Part shown: in pieces, positions 9,448-60,120 of the stretch | Layout of the letters: each line of letters opens with the position of its first letter | How positions within the stretch are numbered: position 1 is the stretch's first letter | Source of the DNA: Malachius bipustulatus | Taxonomy: Eukaryota; Arthropoda; Insecta; Coleoptera; Melyridae | DNA length: 64,000 nucleotides | Assembly: GCA_910589415.1 (NCBI GenBank) | Contig: OU342637.1 | Coordinates: 24,031,162 to 24,095,161, forward strand | Direction: 5' to 3' | Notes under the pieces: model-generated | What the model saw: the letters and a program-made list of their open reading frames with translations, nothing else | Told to the model about the DNA's origin: nothing | Database searches by the model: none | Made by a program: the position numbers and the translations under genes

Positions 9448-9454
9448 CGATATA

Positions 9455-10038
9455 CAGAGTGGACCATCGAAAAGGTAACAAGACTAATAATTTGGAAACT
9501 GAAGATGTACGCGAAAAACGCCGAAACAGGTCGATTTTGTTATCAAAGTAGGCATATTTTCGTAACAAATTCAACTACCCAAGTTCACCCCCCTTGACAG
9601 GGGTAGCTAACCCTTTGCTTATCATCACAGGGAACAGGTATCAAGTGGTACATCATTTGAAAGCTACTTGAATTCTCTTTACAACGATATCCAACATTTT
9701 GGGTTTCGCTTACATACAGGGTGGCCTACATACAAGTGATTAAGGCGAGTTCCGTTTTCGTAGGGCCACCCTGTATGTAAGCAAAACCCAAAATGTTGGA
9801 TATCGTTGTAAAGAGAATTCAAGTAGCTTTCAATTGATGTAGCACTCGATAGCTGTAAGTACCCTATGATGATAAGCAAAGGGGTAGCTACCCCTGCCAA
9901 GGGGATGAACTTGGGTAGTTAAGTTTGTCACGAAAATATGTCCCCCTCGATAACAAAATCGACCTGTTTCGGCGTTTTTCACATGCATCTTCACTTTCCA
10001 AACTATTAGGCTTGTTACCTTTTCGATGACCCACCCTA
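9455..10038. mobile_element. Foldback MITE with TA target duplication
   Basis: Arms of about 260-280 bp are inverted copies around a centre near 9745. Terminal repeats read CAGAGTGG...CCACCCTA, each flanked by TA, again a Tc1/mariner-like pattern. Both arms carry ACGCCGAAACAGGTCGATTT and its inverse, and the inner edge repeats a terminal-like ACAGGGTGGCC / GGCCACCCTGT. Chance reading frames across the palindrome are mirror products, not genes. Confidence 0.8.
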
Positions 10039-10837
10039 TATAGTCGCTCTCATAATAGTGGAATAATTGATAGATCAATCTTGACAATACTTGGGATGCG
10101 ATGAGATCACATCAGGAATTACAAACAGAGAATCAAATTATCAAAGGAAATTATCATGTCGTATCTAGGTAACTATAAACATCTAATTTTGATCAAATTG
10201 CTTCGTTCACGATGTTATAATCTCGGTGTTTAGTATCAGTAGTATCAGCGTTTCTCAAACGGTTCTCTCTGATACCGATCGTAAAGTGTTATACAAGTTC
10301 ATTGTTGCTTTGAAGAGGTTTCTATTTGTTTGCTGTGAGTAAATAAATACAAGTGGATCCCTTCTTCTTCACAAAGTGTATTACTGCAGGTACCGGTGGT
10401 TAATATATCAAAATCATGAATGTGTTTCGTATAGGTAATCTTCAGTACACTTCAACAGGTCGGCGGTTAATTTAGAGCAAATTTATCTCATCTTCATACC
10501 ACCAATTTAATCTTCATACCACATGCAGGCTTCTATTTGGTTGTAGCTTAAAATTTGTCTCATATTATCATTGGTATCCATGAAGGATTAAATGGCAGAA
10601 AAGAACTCACAAATTTCTTGTAAAAAAAGAATTTGGATTGGAAAACTATGTTTACCTATTGTAAAATATGTACCTCAGTACCTAAAAAAATGCTATCGAT
10701 TAGAGTGGTCTGGGTCTGGATTGTTGCAGAGAGGGTGATTGCTGACTGGCACCTAGACCACCGTTGGGCCTTTTGTACCTCCTCTAGAGTGGACAGCTCC
10801 GTGATCCTCCTACACATCCTCAAAACATCGGACTGCT
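10039..10837. other. Non-coding sequence
   Basis: No gene, RNA gene or repeat recognised. Confidence 0.5.
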
Positions 10838-11541: not shown

Positions 11542-13374
11542 TAATTATAGTTTTTTAAAGTATTTTTAAGTTTTTTACATGTTTTTTACATTACGAGTGA
11601 ACAAGGGACCAATCGGCCCTGAAACGTTTCGTTTTTTATAAAAATCTTTTTATAAATACTAATTTCATTCCCAAGAACCCGATTCCCAATTAAATAAGAC
11701 AGAAATTCAACAATTACTAAGAAGGTTCAAGAAAAATTAACAAATAATTCTAAAGTGAGTAACTTCTGTCTATTCGGATGAATTTGGGGATAATGAAGAA
11801 TATTTCACATCGGTTGGTTTGAATAGATGGGAATAAATCCTTTGTTTGAGAAACACTGCTATAACATAAACCTAAAATCGCTTTCAGTTGTGAGAAATTA
11901 CGGTTTGTATCATAATTACCGCGTTTGATTTATATGAGACAATCTTATTGTTAGAGAGACGAAACAGCTTACAATTATGTAATGAAAGACGGTGATCAAT
12001 AAACAGGGAGATCCCGAGGGAAGGAAATTGTTCGTCTCTCGCCATCTCACACTCTTCGTTATAAAACCTTCCAAGCCATCGACAGCAAACAATAAACATT
12101 TCCTGCAGAGGAGAATAGCAACAAAAACTTGTTAATGTCAGTACAGAGCGAGCGGTAATCGTCGACCCTCTGGCAGGATCAGGCCGAAGCTCTTTTCAGT
12201 TTGCAGTTTTTATCAAGGGCGCTAAGTGTGCTAAGTATTCATTTATCATTGCAACAGCTAAAGTTTTATAGTAATGGCTTCTGTACTTTATGCGGCCTCA
12301 CCTCATAACTCCCTGAGAAGGGGTCTCATGTTATATGACAAAAACTACCGGAGATACATTCCCTGTAATGAATTAACGCCGTCCATATTTATTATCATAA
12401 TTATATGCCAGGGTAAATTATTATTCTTTTCGTTTAATTATCTAGGAAACTGCAATAATTATAACGTTCCTGTCTTAATCCCAACAACTAGACGTAGTTT
12501 AAGCGGTGTTGTTGAAGATTTTCTTAAGTACCCTGCGATAAATTTCGTGGGAATAGTTGCAAACTGGCTAAAACTAAGACAAAGTACCATGACGAAATGA
12601 GTTTTTTTTCTCAAACTAAACATCTTAGTTTCATGTTCAGAATAAAATATGGTAAAAACTTATCTTTCGCCTTCCATTTGTCTTGGAAGGGGAATTTTCC
12701 AATTACAATTTCAACTTTTATTGCCTGATAAATATCAGAGAACAAAAGCTATTTAAAAAATTTGCTATTCATTGCTTAAACATTTAGGTAGTAATTAACT
12801 AAAAAGAAAGCTAGAAGTTTTCAACATAATTTTTCCAATATAGGGTGTATACTGTATATATACACAGGTGTATTCTTTGGACCATCTCAAGTCGAAAATA
12901 AACGATGCCCTACATACATATCTCGTATCCAAATCTCGTTTGTTTTCAAGATCCAGGGTTGATCTACGAAAATACTTTCATATTTCGATTATTTTATAAT
13001 CGAAAAAGCTTGTTCACCAGAATACGACGTCACAATTTCCCCTGCTTCGGTGAGGCCCAAGGAATATTATTTTGAAAAAACTTTCAAAACACACGTACGC
13101 CAATGGCTTTCTTAAAATTTTATTTTTATTTTACAGATCAAGCAACTAAAAACAGCACTTTTATGCTTCTTGATTTCTCTTCGTACCTTGATTGGTTTTG
13201 GAAATAAAAAATAGAATCCACTTAATTGCAAATCGATGGAGCAGCCAAGAAACATGGCAAAAATGAAAAAATAAAATTCCTTAGTTTAAACGTAAGCAAT
13301 GTATTTAATTTTATGTAGTCGTACCAAAGCAGACTTTAGATTTTCTTTCAACTGTACCTTTTGATATTAGTCTT
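11542..13374. other. Non-coding sequence
   Basis: No gene is recognised. TATAGGGTGTAT near 12841 resembles a single end of the CAGGGTGT-type elements, but no partner arm was found. Confidence 0.45.
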
Positions 13375-14560
13375 TATTCGGCGGCTTCTTGGACTTCTCG
13401 CGAACTAAAGCATCTGATTTCGTTTCGATCGCTATGTTGCTGGATAAATTGGGGATGTAATGGATTTAGGGGTGTTGGTCACGTTCTGTTTCGGTCGTTC
13501 TTGAGTGACAGGTGTCAGTACGTAGAAGTTGATAATAAGGAGTCTAGTATGCTATCACAAATACATGGAGTCCCTCAAGGATCTGTCCTTGGACAATTGC
13601 TATTCCTCCTTTACGTAAATGATCATCCCAATTATGTCAAAGATTCTTCAACTATCTTATTCGCGGATGACACGACCCTGTTCACAGGCCATCGGGAGAG
13701 TGACGAGGCCGAGCTTAGAATGTCTCGGGCCATGAAGCAGGCAAGTGCTTGGTTTGCTGCGAACAAATTGACTCTGAAATCTGAATGGGGCAAAAACACA
13801 GACGATCACCATAGCAACCCATAGGAACACACCGGCGCGGGATCCTGTTTCCCTTTTGAGTGTGAGGAAAGACCAGCGACGTACTTGGTCCAGTCATGTC
13901 GACCAACTTTGTTCTACGCATTACGTATGTTGGTCGCGTTGGTTTCTCTAGAGCTAGAGGTCCGCAAAATATCATATTTTTCTCTTGTCCATTCGAATCT
14001 TGCTTATGGCTTGACACATTGGGGAGGTTCGTGTGACTGGATCTTGACTGGACTTGGATATACCGGACACTGTAAAGAATGGCCTTACCTTGCCGTCAAT
14101 GTTTATTTATGTGACTTGCTTGCGTATAAATTGAATGACTCCTGCGTTGCGGACCGGTGATGACTTGCATGACCACGATACTAACGACCACTGTCCAGAA
14201 CTAACACAGCTACCATCAGAAATAGAGTGAAAATTTCATTGTAAATACAACTCATTGCCGAATGAAATCAAATCACTCAACATGTATGAGTTTAGGAAAG
14301 CATTGAAGGATTTTTCATTGGATAAAGCATTCTGCAACTTGAATGTGACCTGACTACTGCACCTGACTCTGGTAATACATTGAGTGTGTATAGATACTGG
14401 ATATTGTGCATTATTATTCATGTTTATATCTATTTTGTAAATTTATTGCGAATTTTGTTGACGATGTATGTAGTGTAAATGAATGACTTGCCAAAGATAG
14501 AGTAGACTAATTTGGCCTGCTACATAAACTGGTGCTAAATAAATATTATAATATAGAAAC
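13375..14560 (+). pseudogene. Decayed non-LTR retrotransposon (LINE) reverse transcriptase and 3' end
   Basis: Read across frameshifts, the plus strand gives the fingers-palm order of a LINE reverse transcriptase. A degenerate FLDxSKAFD motif (GFLDFSRTKASD) lies near 13390, then MLLDKLG and, after a frameshift, GFRGVGHVLFRSFLSDR. GVPQGSVLGQLLFLLYVND follows, then the catalytic box FADD (about 13663) and ANKLTLK. After another frameshift come FSLVHSNLAYGLTHWG (about 13980) and a tail with LPNEIKSLNMYEFRKAL near 14260. The 3' end has AATAAATATTATAATATA near 14540. At least three frame breaks make it dead. The family is Jockey/CR1-like; I cannot place it more finely. Confidence 0.8.
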
Positions 14561-19512: not shown

Positions 19513-20133
19513 CATAATCATAATCATCTTTTCAATGTTTTTTTTTTTTGTGATCAGTTGTTGTTTTAAATAACGTTTTCTAATAAAAATAAAAAACGCC
19601 AGCGAAAACTATCTAAAAATTGGTAACTTGGTGCAAATTTAATTTTATTTTTTTTTTAATTTTATTTAAATTTAATTCTTACAAAAAACTAAACAGGTAA
19701 ATGTGCCTAAGTCCAGCCAGGTCTAGTAGTCAGCCACTTGTGGTTAAAAAGCATTGTAATAGAGTACCCACTCAATAATTTGTTCATTATTTGCTTGTAT
19801 AATATTCAGCCACATTTCCCGCCATATCTGTAAAATTTTACGTATTATATCCTAAAAAGTTTACTTTGTGTGAACTTGTTAGTGTGCTGCCTTACAGTGG
19901 CTGAGATTTAGTACGAGAATCTTGTCATTTGGCTTGAGTTCAGGCTATTTAATAATAAGTCAGGAAGAAGTTATTATACATATATCCCTGTGATAAAGTA
20001 AGTGTTTTCTAACATTAATTATATATAATATATTTGATGAATTTTATTGGGATTTAGGTTCTAATTTAAATTTGCCACTAAAGATTCTTTACAGAACAAA
20101 TTAGAAAAACTTTCGTACAGCATGCGAGGAGAA

Positions 20134-20197
20134 GACTGAAGACATGGACGGTACCGTTTCGTCCTTATTATGGACTCATCAGCATATCATATCAGTC
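20134..20197 (-). ncRNA. Type I hammerhead ribozyme, left arm
   Basis: This is the exact mirror of the motif at 20440-20503, read on the minus strand: core CTGATGA, stem II with a 7-nt loop, GAAA, a minimal stem III and the GTC cleavage triplet. All core bases are present. Minus-strand transcription through the left arm would produce it. Confidence 0.85.
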
Positions 20198-20439
20198 AGC
20201 TCTAAACCACACATGCTATACGAAATTTGGAAGTTCTATCTATTCTAACTGGTGTTTTCGTTTTGTAGTGACCTTTAATTTTCAAATGAGTGAGCAGGCA
20301 ACCAGAGAAACGTGCGTGTCTTTTATCTTTTCTGGTTGCCTGCTCACTCATTTGAAAATTAAAGGTCACTACAAAACGAAAACACCAGTTAGAATAGATA
20401 GAACTTCCAAATTTCGTATAGCATGTGTGGTTTAGAGCT

Positions 20440-20503
20440 GACTGATATGATATGCTGATGAGTCCATAATAAGGACGAAACGGTACCGTCCATGTCTTCA
20501 GTC
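20440..20503 (+). ncRNA. Type I hammerhead ribozyme, right arm
   Basis: The core CTGATGA is at 20455-20461. Stem II pairs GTCC (20462-20465) with GGAC (20473-20476) around a 7-nt loop, followed by GAAA (20477-20480). Stem III is minimal: ACGG pairs with CCGT around a TA loop. The cleavage triplet GTC ends at 20490. Stem I pairs GATATG (20449-20454) with CATGTC (20491-20496), then after an internal loop GACTGA (20440-20445) with TCAGTC (20498-20503). An internal loop in stem I is expected for the loop-loop contact of fast natural hammerheads. A short stem III is typical of metazoan retroelement and satellite versions, which often act as dimers. Self-cleavage is inferred, not shown. Confidence 0.9.
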
Positions 20504-21058
20504 TTCTCCTCGCATGCTGTACGAAAGTTTTTCTAATTTGTTCTGTAAAGAATCTTTAGTGGCAAATTTAAATTAGAACCTAAATTCCAATAAAATTCAT
20601 CAAATATATTATATAATCAAATAAGTGGTTCAATAAAAATAATTATAAATTAATTATATATTATACTAACTTTTTTTTGCAAGTTATTGAGGTTAAAATG
20701 GTTTGTTTCCATGTATTTGTGGTGGCTGAGAAAAGGTTGCACAAAGCATCAAGATACCAATTGCCAGCCAGATGGCTGACTACTGGGTAAGTCACCAAAT
20801 ATTCAATTTTAAACCATATTTACTCTGAAATTAGAGACGTTTATGCACTTGCTTTTCACATACAAGAAATGATGGTTATAGCTTATTTATCCAGTAGTCA
20901 GCCACCTTTTATTGAAAGCTTGCTTAACTGGCTGACATGAGGACAGTATACGTTTAGTAGTCAGCCACCTTACAGTGTAGTATTTTCAGGTGGATGACTT
21001 TATGACACCGCACGCTCAGTGTTCAGCCGTCCTAAGTGTAATTTAATTTTTAAGGATA

Positions 21059-21610
21059 ATGGGACGCTACAAGAGTCATGCAGTTCATAAGTATCCTGAA
21101 GAAGCACTTTCTAAAGCCTTGCAAGCAATTCGTGAAGATAACATGGGCATCAGGGAAGCAAGCCGGACATACGGTGTACCGCGTGGTACCATACAAGATA
21201 GACTTCATGGTCGCGTTAAGGAGGCCCCCCGTAAAATGGGTCCTGATACAATTTTGTCAACCAGTGAAGAATCTGATTTGGAAAAATGTTTAATTGATTT
21301 GGCAAAATGTGGGTTTCCACAGAAGAAAAATAATTTATTTAATAGTGTTCAAAAAATAGTTGCAGCAAAAGGCAAGACAACTCCATTTAAACACAACAGA
21401 CCAGAAGAAAAATGGTATCGAGGTTTTATTAAAAGACATCCAACCCTAGCTTTACGCGAAACTGAAGGACTTACAAAAGCAAGAAGCATAAATAACAGAA
21501 GAATCGATAAGGAAATGGTTCCGCGAATTAGAACAATCTCAAAGAAATTGAGCCTGAACTGTATAACATCAACTCAAAGAAAAGTGAACCTCAAAATAAT
21601 ACTACAATAA
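21059..21610 (+). CDS. Pogo/CENP-B-type transposase N-terminal DNA-binding part (truncated)
   Basis: The 183-residue frame begins MGRYKSH. Residues about 12-55 form a psq-type helix-turn-helix (ALQAIREDNMGIREASRTYG, then VPRGTIQDRLHGRV). Residues about 75-150 match the second CENP-B-type DNA-binding domain (NRPEEKWYRGFIKRHPTLALR, shared with pogo/Tigger transposases). Full-length family members continue into a DDE nuclease of about 200 residues. Here the frame leaves the family after KARSINNRRIDKEMV and stops, so the catalytic domain is deleted, not merely frameshifted. It could still make a DNA-binding protein able to occupy the element's own ends or related copies; that is inference. Start choice: first ATG of the frame, just after the subterminal repeats. 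Confidence 0.75.
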   Translation: MGRYKSHAVHKYPEEALSKALQAIREDNMGIREASRTYGVPRGTIQDRLHGRVKEAPRKMGPDTILSTSEESDLEKCLIDLAKCGFPQKKNNLFNSVQKIVAAKGKTTPFKHNRPEEKWYRGFIKRHPTLALRETEGLTKARSINNRRIDKEMVPRIRTISKKLSLNCITSTQRKVNLKIILQ

Positions 21611-29174: not shown

Positions 29175-29216
29175 AAATAAATCAAATTCTTACGAAAACT
29201 CACAAATAAGGTAAGT

Positions 29217-29590
29217 AGAAGGTAGGTGCCTACAGCCCCTTAATGGTTTTTTTTATGTAAATTAGCTCTATTGTTCTCAAGGTCATTGATCACGCCCACC
29301 TGTCATCGAAACAATGGGGTGTACTTGATTTATGGGCACACCTGCATCTGGCCCTTTTTTCGGAAACACAATAGCCTAATGAATTCTTTTGTTATCGGGG
29401 TCATTAATCAAGTACACCCCATTGTTTCGATGACAGGTGGGCGTGATTAATGACCTTGAGAACAATAGAGCTAATTTACATAAAAAACCCATTAAGGGGC
29501 TGTAGGCACCTACCTTCTAATGACCTTGATAACAATAGAGCTAATTTGAATAAAAAACCCATTAAGGGCTGAAGTGACCTACCTTCTACT
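29217..29590. mobile_element. Inverted-repeat element with a partial tandem copy of its right end
   Basis: Left arm 29217-29330 is the near-perfect inverse of 29406-29518; both contain AGGTAGGTGCCTACAGCCCC, CTATTGTTCTCAAGGTCATT and CATCGAAACAATGGGGTGTA or inverses. A further 70-bp copy of the right end (TGACCTTGATAACAATAGAG onward) follows to 29590. There is no coding capacity. Confidence 0.75.
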
Positions 29591-31076: not shown

Positions 31077-32353
31077 TATTTATTTTTATTTTTTTATTTA
31101 TAGAGTAAGGTCATCCAACAGATCACAATAATGACCCAATATAGGATGACACAACTTAACATTACAACAATACAAAAACATCAGTCTCAAAACAACAGAA
31201 ATGCTTGTATATAATAACAAGCAAAAATAACGTAAGCTAAACTAAACTAAACAAATAATAAATAATAAACAACAAGGAAGCTAAAAACCAAAAAGAGGAA
31301 GCAAGTTCCCGAACGAATTCTCGGTCACGTACAAAGCCTCAAAAAATGTGCGGCCTTTCTTTTAAATGACAGAAATGAAGAAGAAGAAGAAGCAGACCCG
31401 GCAGAAGCAAGTTCAACCTCATTGAAATGCCTGACACATCTTATCAAAGGTGAGTTCAAATAAAAATTTGTACTACAAGATGTCAGATCAGCATACAGCA
31501 TGTGTCTCCGACGTAAGGAATATGGAGAACAATTAAAATTTAAAAAGCTCAAGCACTCTTCACAGTCCACCATACTATATATTAATTTATAAATGAAGCA
31601 AACGCCACTTAAGGACCGCCTCAAGGACAACGAATCTACTCTGTAAAAAGATAAGTTCTGATCATAGGAAAAGGAGCCTCTGTTTTTATGGTACCTAAAA
31701 TTCAGGTTTCTAATCAGTTTTCTCTGAACCCTCTCCATCTGCTGTACGTATCTATCATACATTGGACTCCAGACCGCCGAGGCGTACTCCAAACGAGATC
31801 TCACTACCGAGAAGTACACTGCAATAACCGATTCTGATCTCCTGAACTCTCTCGTCGACCTCAACACAAAACCTAACATTTTATAGGCTTCCCGAACCAC
31901 ACCACAAATATGAGACTCAAACGTAAGTCTAGAGTCAAGTAGCACACCCAGATCTCTCACCTCATTTGCAATAGACAGATTGTGTCCAGAAAGAGACAAA
32001 TTATGACAAGGTGGGTCCCTCTTACGTGAGAAGGTTATTTGCTTGCATTTCAGAGGATTAAGTTTAAGTCTGTTCACACAGCAATAGGCATCCAATCGTT
32101 CAAGGTCGCTCTGAAAAAGTCTAAAGTGAGTCTCGTCCGACACCTCCATATATATTTTCATATCATCAGCATAAAGCTTGAAATTAGCTGATTTGAAGCA
32201 CTGTTCGATGTCATTTATGTACAGAGAGAACAGAAGGGGACCGAGATGAGAACCCTGGGGGACCCCTGACGTCACAGCCACGGTAGGGGATCGAGCACAA
32301 TTCAATTCAACAAACTGTTCCCTTCCACTTAAGTACGATGCAAGTAATGTCAA
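31077..32353 (-). mobile_element. 5'-truncated LINE
   Basis: The element consists of the 3' half of a LINE open reading frame (31325-32353), a 3' untranslated region of about 220 bp, and an A/T-rich tail (31077-31101, TAAATAAA-type on the minus strand). The break at about 32353 falls inside the reverse transcriptase, the usual outcome of incomplete reverse transcription. No clear target duplication was found. Confidence 0.8.
31325..32353 (-). CDS. LINE reverse transcriptase, C-terminal half (342 codons open)
   Basis: After ASYLSGREQFVELN come GVPQGSHLGPLLFSLYIND (residues about 30-48) and the catalytic box YADDMKIY (61-68). Then LNPLKCKQITFSRKR (thumb) and VRDLGVLLDSRLTFESHI follow, with the usual LEYASAVWSP and QMERVQRKLIRNL near residue 200. 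The C-terminus has no RNase H, which suggests the CR1/Jockey side of the LINE tree. The first catalytic motif (FLDFSKAFD-like) and the endonuclease are lost with the 5' end, so the frame cannot support retrotransposition even though it has no stop. The long open frame implies a fairly recent insertion. The start methionine is only the first ATG after the truncation. Confidence 0.85.
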   Translation of the reverse strand: MTLLASYLSGREQFVELNCARSPTVAVTSGVPQGSHLGPLLFSLYINDIEQCFKSANFKLYADDMKIYMEVSDETHFRLFQSDLERLDAYCCVNRLKLNPLKCKQITFSRKRDPPCHNLSLSGHNLSIANEVRDLGVLLDSRLTFESHICGVVREAYKMLGFVLRSTREFRRSESVIAVYFSVVRSRLEYASAVWSPMYDRYVQQMERVQRKLIRNLNFRYHKNRGSFSYDQNLSFYRVDSLSLRRSLSGVCFIYKLIYSMVDCEECLSFLNFNCSPYSLRRRHMLYADLTSCSTNFYLNSPLIRCVRHFNEVELASAGSASSSSSFLSFKRKAAHFLRLCT

Positions 32354-32369
32354 AAGATATTTGAATAAA

Positions 32370-32640
32370 AGAATATTGTTGTAAATGTAAATATATATCT
32401 ATATAAATGGCGCGACTGGTTGAGTAAGGTGTGTGTGTGAAGAACTGACAGATACGGAAGCACGAACGAAACACTATCGCGTCGCTTCTCCTATTTGATG
32501 TTGAAATGTAAACTGTTACCAGCAGCGTCCCTGGGGTAATTAAAACAATTCTCTCTTATTTGCATTTTATTATAATTTAACCCAACCGACCGTTAATATG
32601 CGACCTGGCTATAGGTTCGCAGAATATTGGTTCGGTTATT
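32370..32640 (+). repeat. Possible LTR-like or 5' fragment beside the LINE
   Basis: TGTTGTAAATGTAAATATAT is followed by a TATA-like TATATAAATGG, a moderately GC-rich middle part, and TTATTTGCATTTTATTATAA. That layout resembles a solo LTR. No second copy, primer site or target duplication was found, so this is tentative. Confidence 0.25.
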
Positions 32641-54440: not shown

Positions 54441-57400
54441 TCATTGATCAATATCGTTTTCAACGTTTATAGGAAAAATGCAAAGTTTGGATACTGCACG
54501 TTTTGCGATAACTCGATTTACAAGAATCGATACAACACGCACTATTCCATCTTGTCCTGGATGAAGTTCCATTACTCGCCCCATACGCCATTGCAGAGGT
54601 GGAGTGTTGTCATCCCTCAACAAAACAATAGTACCGACCTTGATAGAAGATTGACTGTCTGTCTGCCATTTGTTCCTAGCTTGTAGTTCACACAAATACT
54701 CTCGATGCCATCTCGCCCAAAAATGCTGCACGATGCTTTGTAGACGTTCATATTGTTTTAGGCGATTTTCCGGAACATTCAAGTAACTTCTCTCCGGTAA
54801 GGCGGTTAAAGGTTTTCCAATCAAAAAGTGAGCGGGGGTGAGGGGATTTAATTGATCGGGTGATGTAGTCAAAGGACACAAAGGTCTGGAATTGAGAATC
54901 GATTCAATCTGGATCAATACTGTACTGAAGTCTTCAAAATTTAAATGTGCTTCCCCTACCACTCTCTTTAGATGAAATTTCGCACTTTTAATCCCAGCCT
55001 CCCAAATTCCACCAAAGTTTGGTGACCGAGCTGGTATAAAGTGCCAATTGATATTGTCCGACGACAAAGATGTCGCGATTTCATTGTTCTGTGATTGTAA
55101 AAAATTGTACAGTTTCTTTAGCTCAACGTTAGCACCAACGAAATTCAATGCATTGTCGGAGTAAATATTGAGAGGTTTACCTCTACGACCAATAAATCTC
55201 CTTAAACACGCTAAAAAACTCGCAGTTGTAAGATCAGAGACAACTTCCAAGTGAATGGCTTTGGTTGACATACATATAAATATACAAACATAACCCTTTA
55301 TCAACTTGCAGCCTCTAGTTTCACGGGTTGTCCTATCTTTTAATAGAAAAGGGCCGGCATAATCGCATCCCATGTTAAGAAAAGGTATTGACTGGCTTAC
55401 TCTGCATTTTGGGAGATTTCCCATTAAATATTGAGAACTCTTTGGAGGGTTTACCCTGAAACATTTTACACACTCGTGTACAATTGATTTGCAGAGATTG
55501 CGACCGTGTACAGGCCAAAACCGTTGTCGTACTGACGAAAGTAACATTGTGGGCCCGCAGTGAAATAGCTTATCGTGTTGTTCTTTTATAATTAATTTTG
55601 TTAATACGTGTTTGCTAGATAAAATGATTGGATGTTTTACATCGTACTTGGTCTCAGATTGTTGAATACGACCGCCAACTCGCAGTAATTGATTATCGTC
55701 AATGAAGGGATGTAACGTAAGAATATTACTCCTTTTATTTAATGGACTATTGTGTTTCAACTGATTATACTCGTTCGCAAATGATTGTTGTTGAGCCAAT
55801 CGAATTAAATTAATTTCAGAATTTTCTAATTCTTCGCATGTCAAATAACCTTTCTTTCTCATTGTTTGATTTTTAGTTTTAGCATTGAAAATAAATCTGA
55901 GAACAAATGCAAAAGTTCTTTTTAGTTTATTGTAAGATGAAAATTGACTAAATATTGGTATCTCTGTATTGATATTTATGCAGCTGATAGTACGCTGTTC
56001 CGGAATGTTATCTATATCTGATGGTAAATTTTCAGGCTCTATATTGAACGTGTCACAATTGAGAAAACTTGGCCCTAAAAACCACATTGAATTACCAATA
56101 AGATCTTTAACATTCATGCCGCGAGAGATTAGGTCAGCTGGATTGTCCTGTGACCTTACGTGGTTCCAACTTTCAATATTTGTTATACGCTGTATCTCAC
56201 TCACTCGATTAGCGACGTAGGTTTTCCACCTTGTAGGGGATCCTTTTATCCAACACAGAGTGATGGTCGAGTCAGACCAATAATAGATTTTATTAAATTG
56301 TATTTGTATAGACTCAGTGACTCTCTGTGCGAGCTGTGCACCTAAAAGGGCAGCGCACAACTCTAATCGTGGTAGTGTCACTTGTTTGATTGGCGCGACT
56401 CTAGATTTTGCTGTTAACAACCTACATAAAGTATTACCTGATTCATCTTTACAACGAATATAAAGACATGTCCCGAATGCCTTTTCACTGGCATCTACGA
56501 AAACATGTAATTCAGCATAATTGTAATTCAGCATGACCACCTGCCTGGGAAATTCTATGCTTTTTAATAGCGGTAAATCAGCGATGAACTGACACCAAAT
56601 TGTGTGTATGTTTTGAGGCACAGATTCGTCCCAAGTAATTTTTGCCTGCCATAATTTTTGTATCAGCATTTTGGCAATTATTATTATCGGACCTAGCATA
56701 CCCAACGGGTCGTATATTTGCGAAACAATTGACAATATTGATCGCTTGGTAACATTTTTATTGTTAGAAATTGAAATTGAGAACTGAATGCAATCTCGAC
56801 TAGGATTCCATAATATACCTAATGTCTTATTTGCTTCATCGTCACCGATTGACAATACGGGTACTTCCAAATTACTATTCACCAAGAACTGCTTTTGTAA
56901 TTGCATATCGTTAGAAAGCCATTTTCTTAAGTCAAAATTAGCCTTAGATAGTATGGAAGTTATGTCATGTTGTAATTGTAATAATTCGGATTTTGAATCT
57001 GCGCCCGTAAGAAGGTCATCTACGTAAAAGTCGTTTTTTATTGTACTACTCGCCTGGCTATTGCTTTCTTCACATTCAATTGCTAATTGGTATAGAGATC
57101 TAATTGCGAGCCACGGGGCAGAAGCTGTTCCGTATGTTACGGTGTTTAGTTTATAGCATTTTAGATTTTCAGAGGGGTTTTCCCGCCAAAATATTTTTTG
57201 AAATTGTCTTTGATCTTTATCGATAAGAACCATGCGGTACATTTTTGATATATCCGCTGCCATTACGTAATTATGTTTACGAAATCTTAAAGTGATTGAG
57301 AATAGATCATTTTGAATTGTAGGCCCTACATGCTGGACGTCATTTAGACTTACACCCGAGTCGGAATTCATACTCGCGTCAAATACTACTCTGACACGTG

Positions 57401-59774
57401 TGGTAGTTGATTCACGGACTACACAATGCTGTGCTATATAGCAGCCTGCACCATCGTCGTCGTCCACCCTGGTCATGTGGCCCAATTGTTCATACTCTTT
57501 CATGAAATTGAAGTACTCTCTCTTTAATACAGGATTTTTTATTAGCTTGCGCTCTAAAGTGTAAAATCTGTTTAAAGCTAGTTCTCTAGTTTCTCCTAAC
57601 TCATTAATATTTTCCTTAAAAGGAATTCGTACCATGAATTGTCCCTTTTGGTTACGTTTTAGATTGCTTTTAAAATGCTGTTCACAAAATTCATCGGATT
57701 GGGATTTAATTGCGTTAAGTTTTACTTCTTCTGTTTGCCAGAATTTTAAAATGCGTTTATCTAATGTCGAGTTATCTACCTGAATAGAGTGGCAATTTAT
57801 AGAATATGTTCGTTGATTGGGAAGTATACTTAATTTACCTGCTAGAATCCATCCTAATTGTGTTTTTTGCAGAGTCAGGTTATTATCATTTAATTGTAAC
57901 TGACCTACACATAAAAGTTGCCAGAATACAACAGATCCGAGCAACATATCGATCGGTCCCGTTTGATTGAAGTTGGGATCGGCTAGTTTAATATTAGATG
58001 GTATTTTTATTGTATCTTTCTTAAAAGAAATGCTAGGTAAATTCTCGGTTATTTTATTTAATACCAAGCAGGAAATTTCTGAATTGTAAGAGTTGTATTG
58101 TGAATATATCTTCACTTCTGTACAAAATTGTGCGTTTGTAATTGATTGACCAACTCCTGTAATTGAGCATTCAGTTTTTTTTAATGGTAACTTTAATTTT
58201 TTGCAGAAGTTTTCGGTCATAAAATTGCTCATTGAACCACTGTCTAGTAGTGCCCGACAGTAGTGAAATTTCCCATCTCGATCTTTTATTTTCATCATTG
58301 CTGTTGATAACAAAACTTGTGTGCTGAATATTGCAGCATTGTTTTCAATATATGTACCTAATTGTGGGTACCTGCATTCAATGTTTGATTGGGCAATATT
58401 TGATTGTACATTAAATTGTGAACTTGACTGCGCATTGTCTGGAGATTCACTATTGTTTGAATTATTGTTTATAGCTCTGAAATTGTCAATGTGCAATAGA
58501 GAATTGTGATGCCTACCGCATCTTCTACAATTTGAATATGTACATTGATTGGTACTGTGAAAAGGCCGCAAGCAATTTAAACAAAGTTTTTTATTTTTTA
58601 CAATATTAATTCTATCGTTGACTGATAATTTAAGAAACGCTTGACACTGAAATATTGTGTGCTTATTACCGCAATTGTAGCAAATCGGATACTTGCTTTC
58701 GACACTACCTTTTTCAGATTCATTCGACACATAGGCGTGCGATTGACCCTTACCTTTAGGATAATTGAATTTATCCTTTTTATTGTCATTAGAATTAATT
58801 GCTAATTTCTCCAGTACCTCACATCTCTGTTTCAGAAATTTATTCAAGTCTGTCATCAAAGGTATTTGATTTTCCTTCGGAAATAACTCCCACTGTTTCC
58901 TAGTCTCGGCAGCCATTTTAGAAGTGATAATATAGATAATCAAAGAATCCCAATGGTCAACTGGTTGATTGAGTGCTTTTAATGACCTTAAATGCTTTGT
59001 AATAGTGTCATAAAGAATTCGCAATTCTCCATGTGTTTCTTTATTAGACCCCTGGAATTCGAAAATTGCTTTTATGTGACTGTGAATAATTAGACCTGTT
59101 TGTTCAAATCGTTCTGACAGCATTTTCCAAGCGATTGGATAGTTATCAGAGGATACTTGTATGCATTGAATAATTTGAGAAGCTTTTTCAGTAAGAGACG
59201 ATTTCAAATAATAGAATTTTTGTACATCTGTCAATGTTTTATTGTCATCGACCATAGCTTTGAAGCCGTCTCTGAACTCACTCCATTGATCGTACTCCCC
59301 ATTGAACTTCGGAAGTGATATCGTTGGGAGTTTTATTGATTGACTAAAGGCACCAGATACATTGTCGATAGTATTGACTGTTGGTGGAATCTGGGTTGAA
59401 CTGGTTGAAGCTACAGGTTGAATTATATTTACTTTTTCGTAAAATTGATCGATAGTAACTTGCATGCTTGCAATTAGACTGTAATAATCCTTTTCAAAAT
59501 TGTTTCGTTCTAATGCTTCAACCGCAGCCTCAAAGGCAGTTTCTGATCTACTGATTGTCGTTTCTAATTCATTTTGAATTTCATCGAACCTTTCTAATAA
59601 AACCTCTGCGTTAAAGAATCTTTTTTTTAATTCAGTGATCGCTTGAGAGTTCAAATTGCTTTTGTCTAAATCCTCCCAATGGGTTTTTGCTCGTGCGAGC
59701 GATGCTTTAACGTAGTTTCTATTTACTTTTAATTGACTAATTGTCTCCTCCATTGTTTTTATAAAATTGTACAA
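54441..59774 (-). CDS. BEL/Pao Gag-Pol polyprotein, 1777 residues, intact
   Basis: Residues 1-140 form a coiled-coil-like Gag start. A DUF1759-type capsid region begins about 150 (LPKFNGEYDQWSEFRDGF). Zinc knuckles lie at about 365-420 (CYNCG, CLNC, CRRCG). The aspartic protease motif is LLDSGS, with the aspartate at 511. Reverse transcriptase has DISKMYR (D841) and YVDD (917-920). A Peptidase_A17-type segment lies near 1000-1080, and RNase H has FVDAS (D1094), LELCAALLGA (E1138) and WSDST (D1168). Integrase has an HHCC zinc finger (H1400, H1405, C1435, C1438) and DDE residues D1471, D1540 and E1592. A DUF5641-like C-terminus (HFWARWHREYL) closes the protein. No stop or frameshift is present. 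The polyprotein would be processed into virus-like-particle and copying enzymes. The first ATG of the frame is taken as the start; a second lies seven codons in. Confidence 0.97.
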   Translation of the reverse strand: MYNFIKTMEETISQLKVNRNYVKASLARAKTHWEDLDKSNLNSQAITELKKRFFNAEVLLERFDEIQNELETTISRSETAFEAAVEALERNNFEKDYYSLIASMQVTIDQFYEKVNIIQPVASTSSTQIPPTVNTIDNVSGAFSQSIKLPTISLPKFNGEYDQWSEFRDGFKAMVDDNKTLTDVQKFYYLKSSLTEKASQIIQCIQVSSDNYPIAWKMLSERFEQTGLIIHSHIKAIFEFQGSNKETHGELRILYDTITKHLRSLKALNQPVDHWDSLIIYIITSKMAAETRKQWELFPKENQIPLMTDLNKFLKQRCEVLEKLAINSNDNKKDKFNYPKGKGQSHAYVSNESEKGSVESKYPICYNCGNKHTIFQCQAFLKLSVNDRINIVKNKKLCLNCLRPFHSTNQCTYSNCRRCGRHHNSLLHIDNFRAINNNSNNSESPDNAQSSSQFNVQSNIAQSNIECRYPQLGTYIENNAAIFSTQVLLSTAMMKIKDRDGKFHYCRALLDSGSMSNFMTENFCKKLKLPLKKTECSITGVGQSITNAQFCTEVKIYSQYNSYNSEISCLVLNKITENLPSISFKKDTIKIPSNIKLADPNFNQTGPIDMLLGSVVFWQLLCVGQLQLNDNNLTLQKTQLGWILAGKLSILPNQRTYSINCHSIQVDNSTLDKRILKFWQTEEVKLNAIKSQSDEFCEQHFKSNLKRNQKGQFMVRIPFKENINELGETRELALNRFYTLERKLIKNPVLKREYFNFMKEYEQLGHMTRVDDDDGAGCYIAQHCVVRESTTTRVRVVFDASMNSDSGVSLNDVQHVGPTIQNDLFSITLRFRKHNYVMAADISKMYRMVLIDKDQRQFQKIFWRENPSENLKCYKLNTVTYGTASAPWLAIRSLYQLAIECEESNSQASSTIKNDFYVDDLLTGADSKSELLQLQHDITSILSKANFDLRKWLSNDMQLQKQFLVNSNLEVPVLSIGDDEANKTLGILWNPSRDCIQFSISISNNKNVTKRSILSIVSQIYDPLGMLGPIIIIAKMLIQKLWQAKITWDESVPQNIHTIWCQFIADLPLLKSIEFPRQVVMLNYNYAELHVFVDASEKAFGTCLYIRCKDESGNTLCRLLTAKSRVAPIKQVTLPRLELCAALLGAQLAQRVTESIQIQFNKIYYWSDSTITLCWIKGSPTRWKTYVANRVSEIQRITNIESWNHVRSQDNPADLISRGMNVKDLIGNSMWFLGPSFLNCDTFNIEPENLPSDIDNIPEQRTISCININTEIPIFSQFSSYNKLKRTFAFVLRFIFNAKTKNQTMRKKGYLTCEELENSEINLIRLAQQQSFANEYNQLKHNSPLNKRSNILTLHPFIDDNQLLRVGGRIQQSETKYDVKHPIILSSKHVLTKLIIKEQHDKLFHCGPTMLLSSVRQRFWPVHGRNLCKSIVHECVKCFRVNPPKSSQYLMGNLPKCRVSQSIPFLNMGCDYAGPFLLKDRTTRETRGCKLIKGYVCIFICMSTKAIHLEVVSDLTTASFLACLRRFIGRRGKPLNIYSDNALNFVGANVELKKLYNFLQSQNNEIATSLSSDNINWHFIPARSPNFGGIWEAGIKSAKFHLKRVVGEAHLNFEDFSTVLIQIESILNSRPLCPLTTSPDQLNPLTPAHFLIGKPLTALPERSYLNVPENRLKQYERLQSIVQHFWARWHREYLCELQARNKWQTDSQSSIKVGTIVLLRDDNTPPLQWRMGRVMELHPGQDGIVRVVSILVNRVIAKRAVSKLCIFPINVENDIDQ

Positions 59775-60120
59775 TATTAATTCAAGTTGAATAAATTCGT
59801 CAAAAAGGATCGAAAAGGAAATGGTAATTGTAATGGAATCGAAGGAATTTATTGGAACGGACTCACCCCGCTGTTATGATGTTTTTCTAACAATATCGGC
59901 TCGGCACCAGCTGCACTAGTACCTATCAGTACCAGCAGTTCTTTTTCGTCTCCTTGCTGAATGCTGAATATATCAATCGGGAAGTAGTAAGTAGTACCAG
60001 CGAATGTGGATTGCAGACACTTATTGACTTGTTTGCTCCTCTTCAACTGGAAGTTCGCGTGCACGTTTTGATTTACTAAATTGTAATAATTGTTATTGTT
60101 AAATCGTCTCTAAGCTTACT
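59775..60120 (-). other. Leader of the BEL/Pao element, with an upstream open frame
   Basis: The region between primer site and Gag start (in minus orientation) contains a 71-codon frame (60064-59849) ending about 75 bases before the Gag-Pol ATG. Whether it is translated is unknown; it could lower Gag-Pol translation, or be spliced or bypassed. I recognise no domain in it. Confidence 0.5.

Follow-up and report, generated by a model that had tools for sequence, protein, structure and literature searches.

Head-to-head copies of a hammerhead retrozyme family in the beetle Malachius bipustulatus, probably made by copying RNA from both ends of a target site

Results

A palindromic element with two hammerhead ribozymes

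The window, i.e. the whole stretch of 64,000 nucleotides that was analysed, contains an inverted repeat (20022-20309 and 20328-20615) with arms of 288 nt that are 99% complementary and separated by 18 nt. These arms belong to an element (20027-20648) with a single ribozyme on each strand, a short representative of a family whose unit is 573 bp. Positions in this unit are given below with the prefix m, and the short and long outer ends of its copies are referred to as S and L. The features of the locus are:

20014-20026, no strand: left copy of the likely target-site duplication, ATTAATTATATAT, an exact 13-nt direct repeat with 20649-20661
20027-20323, minus strand: short-end (S) arm, antisense, running from m283 to m1 and then from m573 to m560 of the 573-nt unit
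20141-20188, minus strand: type I hammerhead, RF00163 28.1 bits, predicted cut between 20147 and 20146
20324-20327, no strand: centre where the two copies meet, with ~4 nt of filler assigned by eye against the unit
20328-20648, plus strand: long-end (L) arm, m1-m321 of the unit, 98% to unit m1-323
20449-20496, plus strand: type I hammerhead, RF00163 28.1 bits, predicted cut 20490/20491
20611-20648, plus strand: tail found at just one side, covering the unit from the S end at m283 to the L end at m321
20649-20661, no strand: right copy of the likely 13-bp target-site duplication ATTAATTATATAT

The S arm was assigned by alignment for m1-288 and by eye for m560-573. Since the latter 14-nt piece yields no BLAST match, the automated procedure gives a junction gap of 18 nt for the window copy. 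One side of the element is longer by 38 nt (m284-m321). Judged from its sequence, the 13-bp direct repeat that flanks the element is likely a target-site duplication. A shared repeat of at least 13 nt was present in none of 5000 simulated flank pairs of 25x50 nt, in 7 of 5000 pairs of 45x75 nt, and in 3 of 20000 real pairs taken from the window.

A read-through transcript of the element is predicted to fold as a single long hairpin, and no Pol III A or B boxes were detected in the element. Several miRNA families matched the centre of the palindrome; these matches were disregarded, as they are expected of any long hairpin. Long palindromes per se are not rare within the window: others are located at 265-1125, 9451-10042 and 29208-29527 (93, 85 and 83% identity, respectively), and none of the three matches the hammerhead element.

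Several open frames lie elsewhere in the window. A Psq-type helix-turn-helix frame is located at 21047-21610 (plus strand), with named relatives in beetles, a psyllid and a moth, and the motif GTCAGCCAC is scattered upstream of it at 19729, 20897 and 20960. The frame at 54441-59873 (minus strand, 1810 codons) is of the BEL/Pao LTR retrotransposon type and matches Peptidase_A17, an integrase zinc-binding domain and, weakly, reverse transcriptase. Reverse transcriptase fragments (RVT_1), which we read as LINE-like, are present at 31325-32398 (minus strand) and 13309-13821 (plus strand).

The ribozymes were the starting point of the analysis, as the original prediction had described paired type I hammerheads on opposite strands of a palindrome. 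In agreement with it, both arms have the core sequences CUGAUGA, GAAA and GUC, a 4-bp stem II and all three stems in the predicted secondary structure, and the plus-strand cut falls at 20490/20491. The proposed check with a covariance model was borne out in part: both arms match RF00163 (Rfam Hammerhead_1), with an E-value of 0.0099 for the whole window and 1.6e-5 for 101 bases, but their 28.1 bits lie below the gathering score of 34, and a whole-window Rfam scan at that score gave no match. A loose hammerhead descriptor picked out just these two sites of the window; across 60 Markov-simulated windows it matched 6 times. Two details have to be revised. The arms, said to differ at one position, have two mismatches (20051/20586 and 20307/20330), and the stem III with a 2-nt loop is sterically unlikely. 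Because ACGGUACCGU is self-complementary, a stem of 3 bp with a GUAC tetraloop, or pairing in a dimer, would be more plausible.

The 573-bp family and its sampling

With the palindrome as query, the genome (544 Mb, 52 contigs) gave 218 matches (40 of 1498 candidates scored), and a first set of 40 loci, the window and 39 others, was chosen in this way. The further copies that the original prediction proposed to search for are thus present; they form an interspersed family in which full 573-bp units occur in tandem elsewhere. The unit was defined from a tandem array in locus L163, and its predicted ribozyme cut lies after m163. It is 573 nt long, has a GC content of 31.8% and is non-coding (longest stop-free stretch 71 codons), so that reverse transcriptase and GIY-YIG coding sequences are absent from it. 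This conforms to the non-autonomous nature proposed for the element, Penelope-like reverse transcriptase frames being present elsewhere in the genome (see below).

At least two ribozymes are present within one arm in 16 of the 40 loci, and these loci could release the unit; the window copy lacks such an arm and should not free a unit on transcription. Units of separate insertions differ at 1.25% of positions (23618/1886078). The copies are therefore young, as had been proposed. The ribozyme region m121-172 is identical in 88 of 95 units. Changes amount to 10.5 per 1000 in the ribozyme core, a figure inflated by one 10-nt deletion, versus 6.9 overall, and hence there is no sign of constraint on the core among these young copies. 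The ribozyme pattern of the family had no matches in viral contigs, in which a loose pattern occurs at no fewer than 80 loci, and prokaryote genomes gave no match to the ribozyme pattern.

As a control for palindrome bias we used m292-562, a region mostly absent from the window element, as query; this query favours long arms. It gave 45 matches (40 of 632 candidates scored) falling in 27 loci. Fifteen of these were already in the first set (13 head-to-head and two one-sided, L149 and L154), and 10 of the 12 new loci were examined with about 1 kb of flank.

Insertions are mostly head-to-head and have two preferred outer ends

In the first set, a minus block followed by a plus block, i.e. the head-to-head order, was found in 34 of 40 loci (43 clusters), and the tail-to-tail order in none. 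The other six (L141, L142, L147, L149, L154 and L161) are one-sided, L142 having a 10-bp repeat. With the control query, 18 of the 25 loci examined are head-to-head (13 prior and 5 new), 7 are one-sided and none is tail-to-tail. In contrast to the first set, for which a palindrome had served as query, only five of the ten new loci are head-to-head (L178, L179, L181, L182 and L185). All five have one S and one L end, and four are flanked by repeats of 12-15 bp, the repeat of L178 being an AT run. The other five, L180 (15-bp repeat), L183, L184, L186 and L187, are one-sided within the ~1 kb flank.

Of the 34 head-to-head loci in the first set, 32 combine one short outer end (S, ~m283) with one long outer end (L, ~m323; binomial p 3e-8). 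With the threshold set at m305 the automated count was 31, and L153 became the 32nd once a nested insertion was accounted for; L157 and L160 are likewise interrupted, and their true edges are S and L. The exceptions are L138, which is S+S, and L139, which is of unclear type. After trimming, for which a direct repeat was needed, and with L138 left out, the S ends map to m276-288 in 25 of 26 cases (one at m294), and the L ends to m319-325 in 24 of 26 (the others at m316 and m330).

Exact direct repeats of at least 9 nt, AT-rich in sequence, flank 27 of the 34 loci in the automated analysis, and 24 of these are 12-16 bp long; two of the 27 are doubtful, namely L138 (the element's own sequence) and L162 (an AT run). 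Closer inspection gave repeats of 14 bp for L153 and L157, 13 bp for L160 and 10 bp for L144, and no convincing direct repeat at L135, L136, L138 and L139. At L159, joining the flanks with a single copy of the repeat restores a 754-aa LINE frame across the site, i.e. an empty site, which shows that the entire inverted array at this locus is one insertion. At the outer ends, microhomology between target and RNA averages 2.67 nt, compared with 0.72 nt when sites are swapped (54 ends).

The centres of the insertions vary. At the inner junctions the arms either overlap, by at most 16 nt, or are separated by at most 40 nt, as expected from end joining. The longest arm of the first 40 loci is 1700 nt (L152, ~3.0 units), and the longest overall is 1966 nt (L179, 3.4 units). 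As the outer ends recur while the centre varies, synthesis presumably begins at the outer ends and has no fixed stopping point, so that two cDNAs would have grown inward from the two ends of the target.

The lengths of the two arms are correlated (Spearman 0.46 for 31 pairs, 0.39 for 29 and 0.35 for 34, the last including the five new loci). The set of 29 excludes the interrupted loci L153, L157 and L160 and the odd loci L138 and L139. In it, arm lengths lie within 42 nt of each other in 9 pairs versus 2.8 in permutations (p 0.0008), within 25 nt in 5 versus 1.5, and within 10 nt in 2 versus 0.7 (p 0.15); with thresholds picked post hoc, equality of arm lengths is suggestive only.

A second retrozyme family with the same anatomy

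A genome-wide RF00163 search gave 74 scored matches out of 73468 candidates, all above the cut-off, and 52 of them share a score of 58.7 bits; no matches above the cut-off were found in 14 control genomes. Among the 74 scored matches, all five pairs of opposite-strand neighbours within 1 kb are head-to-head by eye. The unit of this second, canonical retrozyme family (58.7 bits) is 319 bp, and the three loci examined, L188 (G000:C1:28694100-28695900), L189 and L190, are all head-to-head, with one end at m218-222, the other at m46-47, and repeats of 13-17 bp. The two-end rule thus recurs with a different spacing of the start sites.

Penelope-like elements of the same genome

A broken Penelope-like copy adjoins locus L162. 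Its reverse transcriptase frame scores 21.3 bits with RVT_1, below the cut-off, and has 19 relatives, three of which carry GIY-YIG (PF01541). The frame that follows it is, when its motif is read by eye, presumably GIY-YIG as well. A genome search with the reverse transcriptase frame gave 124 scored matches out of 1373 candidates, and by our own count 37 of the 124 have open frames of 820-865 aa. Penelope-like neighbours within 8 kb are head-to-head in 21 cases, tail-to-tail in none and in the same orientation in 18, of which 16 are spaced at 3.17-3.33 kb. Tandem Penelope-like arrays with a period of ~3.32 kb and frames of up to 841 aa were seen at G000:C2:60811815-60829378 and C3:53639815-53650727.

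Both ends were compared by eye for three Penelope-like families, a fourth pair (L168/L174) having given no resolved ends. In these three, one end has ~30 extra nt before a TA run, and short hammerhead-like motifs are present near the compared ends. When the 573-bp unit was compared with six Penelope 3' regions, the best match had E 0.025. Because their insertion anatomy matches that of the retrozymes in the same genome, the Penelope-like elements are by analogy the likely source of the enzyme for the retrozyme family, in line with the link to Penelope-like elements and retrozymes made in the original prediction. That prediction had also suggested that the palindrome may be a class of its own, and that pairing of the two arms could act as a built-in switch. 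Neither idea finds support. The inverted layout is common in the 573-bp family and is shared by the second retrozyme family (3/3 loci examined) and the Penelope-like elements; being so widespread, it more likely records an insertion mechanism.

Discussion

A proposed mechanism for head-to-head insertion

We propose that the locus is, with high probability, a non-autonomous animal retrozyme that arose when an apparently circular 573-nt RNA was copied from both 3' ends of a target site and the two cDNAs were joined. Genomic copies with at least two ribozymes in one arm would be transcribed, and two hammerhead cuts would free the 573-nt RNA, which a host ligase may close into a circle, as in the published retrozyme pathway. 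A Penelope-like protein would make a staggered cut in AT-rich DNA, the stagger being mostly 12-16 nt. The two 3' ends exposed in this way would then prime reverse transcription, one at S (~m283) and the other at L (~m323), aided by pairing of a few target bases with the RNA. Each cDNA would proceed antisense round the RNA and could reach ~3.4 unit lengths, as in L179. Joining of the two cDNAs end to end via microhomology or filler would give a copy that has a single tail, a target-site duplication and a centre that varies, and the order would be head-to-head because both cDNAs are antisense copies. If a single cDNA were kept, a one-sided copy would result.

We lean somewhat towards the more specific view that both 3' ends of the staggered cut are extended on the same ribozyme-made circle, each bound to a different start site. 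An asymmetric protein dimer might hold one circle and so fix one start site per end. If true, one mechanism would cover the tandem as well as the inverted arrays of retrozymes and Penelope-like elements.

Template and alternative explanations

Each insertion has nearly a single set of alleles. Units on one side of an insertion differ at 34 of 12987 positions (0.26%), and units across its two sides at 93 of 26669 (0.35%). Eight columns segregate inside the unit. Six have no mixed loci (of 31, 32, 34, 37, 23 and 23, respectively) and the remaining two have one mixed locus each (of 32 and 37); column m324, at the L end, was set aside (4 of 19 mixed). A linear monomer cut by the ribozyme would permit arms of just 120 nt (S) or 160 nt (L). 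The shortest arms in the 29 pairs are 147 nt (S) and 323 nt (L), yet the L arm of L178 is 46 nt. None of 68 inner ends lies within 5 nt of the ribozyme cut, with just 1.3 expected. From these sequence comparisons, repeated reading of one closed 573-nt RNA appears to fit best, although gene conversion, or a linear multimer of uniform units, could likewise leave one allele set per insertion.

Linear multimeric RNA might indeed replace the circle as the template for an otherwise identical two-sided priming. Tandem arrays exist that could yield uniform multimers, and the ribozyme, with 28.1 bits, may cut poorly. This alternative would however require RNA that has escaped the ribozyme, and units should be lost in each round, so that long arrays would not persist; we consider it rather unlikely. 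As a separate observation, L141, L186 and L187 are one-sided and comprise about one turn of the unit, as if synthesis had halted on meeting its own start; with a nominal p of 0.04 and a post hoc choice of loci, they point only weakly to a circle.

The inner ends bear on a different possibility, self-priming (snap-back), in which one cDNA folds back and copies its own arm, as has been proposed for Penelope palindromes in Adineta vaga (in the available text of PMC3846280). The window copy is nearly symmetric, and in L145 and L148 the inner ends are at an identical unit position. Snap-back nevertheless predicts that the two sides of the centre share a unit coordinate, and in just 4 of 34 loci are the inner ends no more than 20 unit positions apart, with 2.4 expected. 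It would also duplicate the tail on both sides, in conflict with the pairing of an S with an L end in 32 of 34 loci. As the general route it is therefore improbable, and it might account for a minority of events.

Long inverted repeats and target-site duplications would also suit a foldback or MITE-like DNA transposon that acquired a hammerhead, but the outer ends are unequal by ~40 nt, arm length and centre differ among copies and tandem units are present on either side, which makes this origin highly improbable. Palindromes can arise from missed adapters, but with 34 of 40 loci head-to-head, differing junctions and centres, own duplications at most loci and one empty site, an assembly artefact, which the original prediction had named as a risk, or chance has a negligible probability.

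Relation to known systems

Retrozymes, retrozyme circles and inverted copies of Penelope elements are already known. The animal non-LTR retrozymes described by Cervera and de la Pena (2020; PMC7229834, as far as its accessible text goes) resemble the present family in their canonical type I hammerhead, short AT-rich non-coding tandem units, duplications of more than 4 bp, lack of LTRs and co-existing Penelope-like elements; their units are 170-400 nt long, whereas the present one is 573 bp. Most of the present copies are head-to-head, and their outer ends fall at two preferred positions; the accessible text of that paper does not mention this for animal retrozymes, and the term 'inverted' has no occurrence in its main text.

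The head-to-head inverted copies and AT-rich targets are like those of the Penelope-like elements of Adineta vaga (PMC3846280) and of the Anolis element PAc (PMC11167929), and so is the one-sided tail of 30-40 nt; according to the available portions of these papers, their duplications are short (8-10 bp). The Adineta vaga families are described there with an inverted pLTR, a 31-bp tail at one end and a short duplication. According to the available text of PMC11167929, the Anolis PAc protein elongates both strands of the target and begins at two neighbouring sites inside the RNA, with which the present model of two start sites and two strands agrees. A 2020 review (PMC7761336) states, in its available text, that animal retrozymes lack any conserved motif that would reveal which element lends its machinery. 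The insertion anatomy supplies a clue of that kind, as it matches that of Penelope-like elements in the same genome, and it offers a simple explanation of the inverted Penelope-like copies.

Among the titles and openings of abstracts searched, in which subscription papers were scarce, none described head-to-head retrozymes or two-sided priming on circular RNA. The union of these known features, the rule of one short and one long end in retrozymes, and the evidence for one template appear new. Dozens of young insertions provide a natural record for testing two-sided priming and circular templates.

A partial parallel exists in twin priming by L1, in which the other end of the target also serves as a primer on the RNA of the element and an inverted segment results. 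In L1 this primer is placed at internal positions that vary, and the inverted segment does not amount to another copy. The retrozyme insertions are like this in that the second target end would prime on the element RNA, and differ from it in that their two start sites are recurrent and the two arms are copies of a common region.
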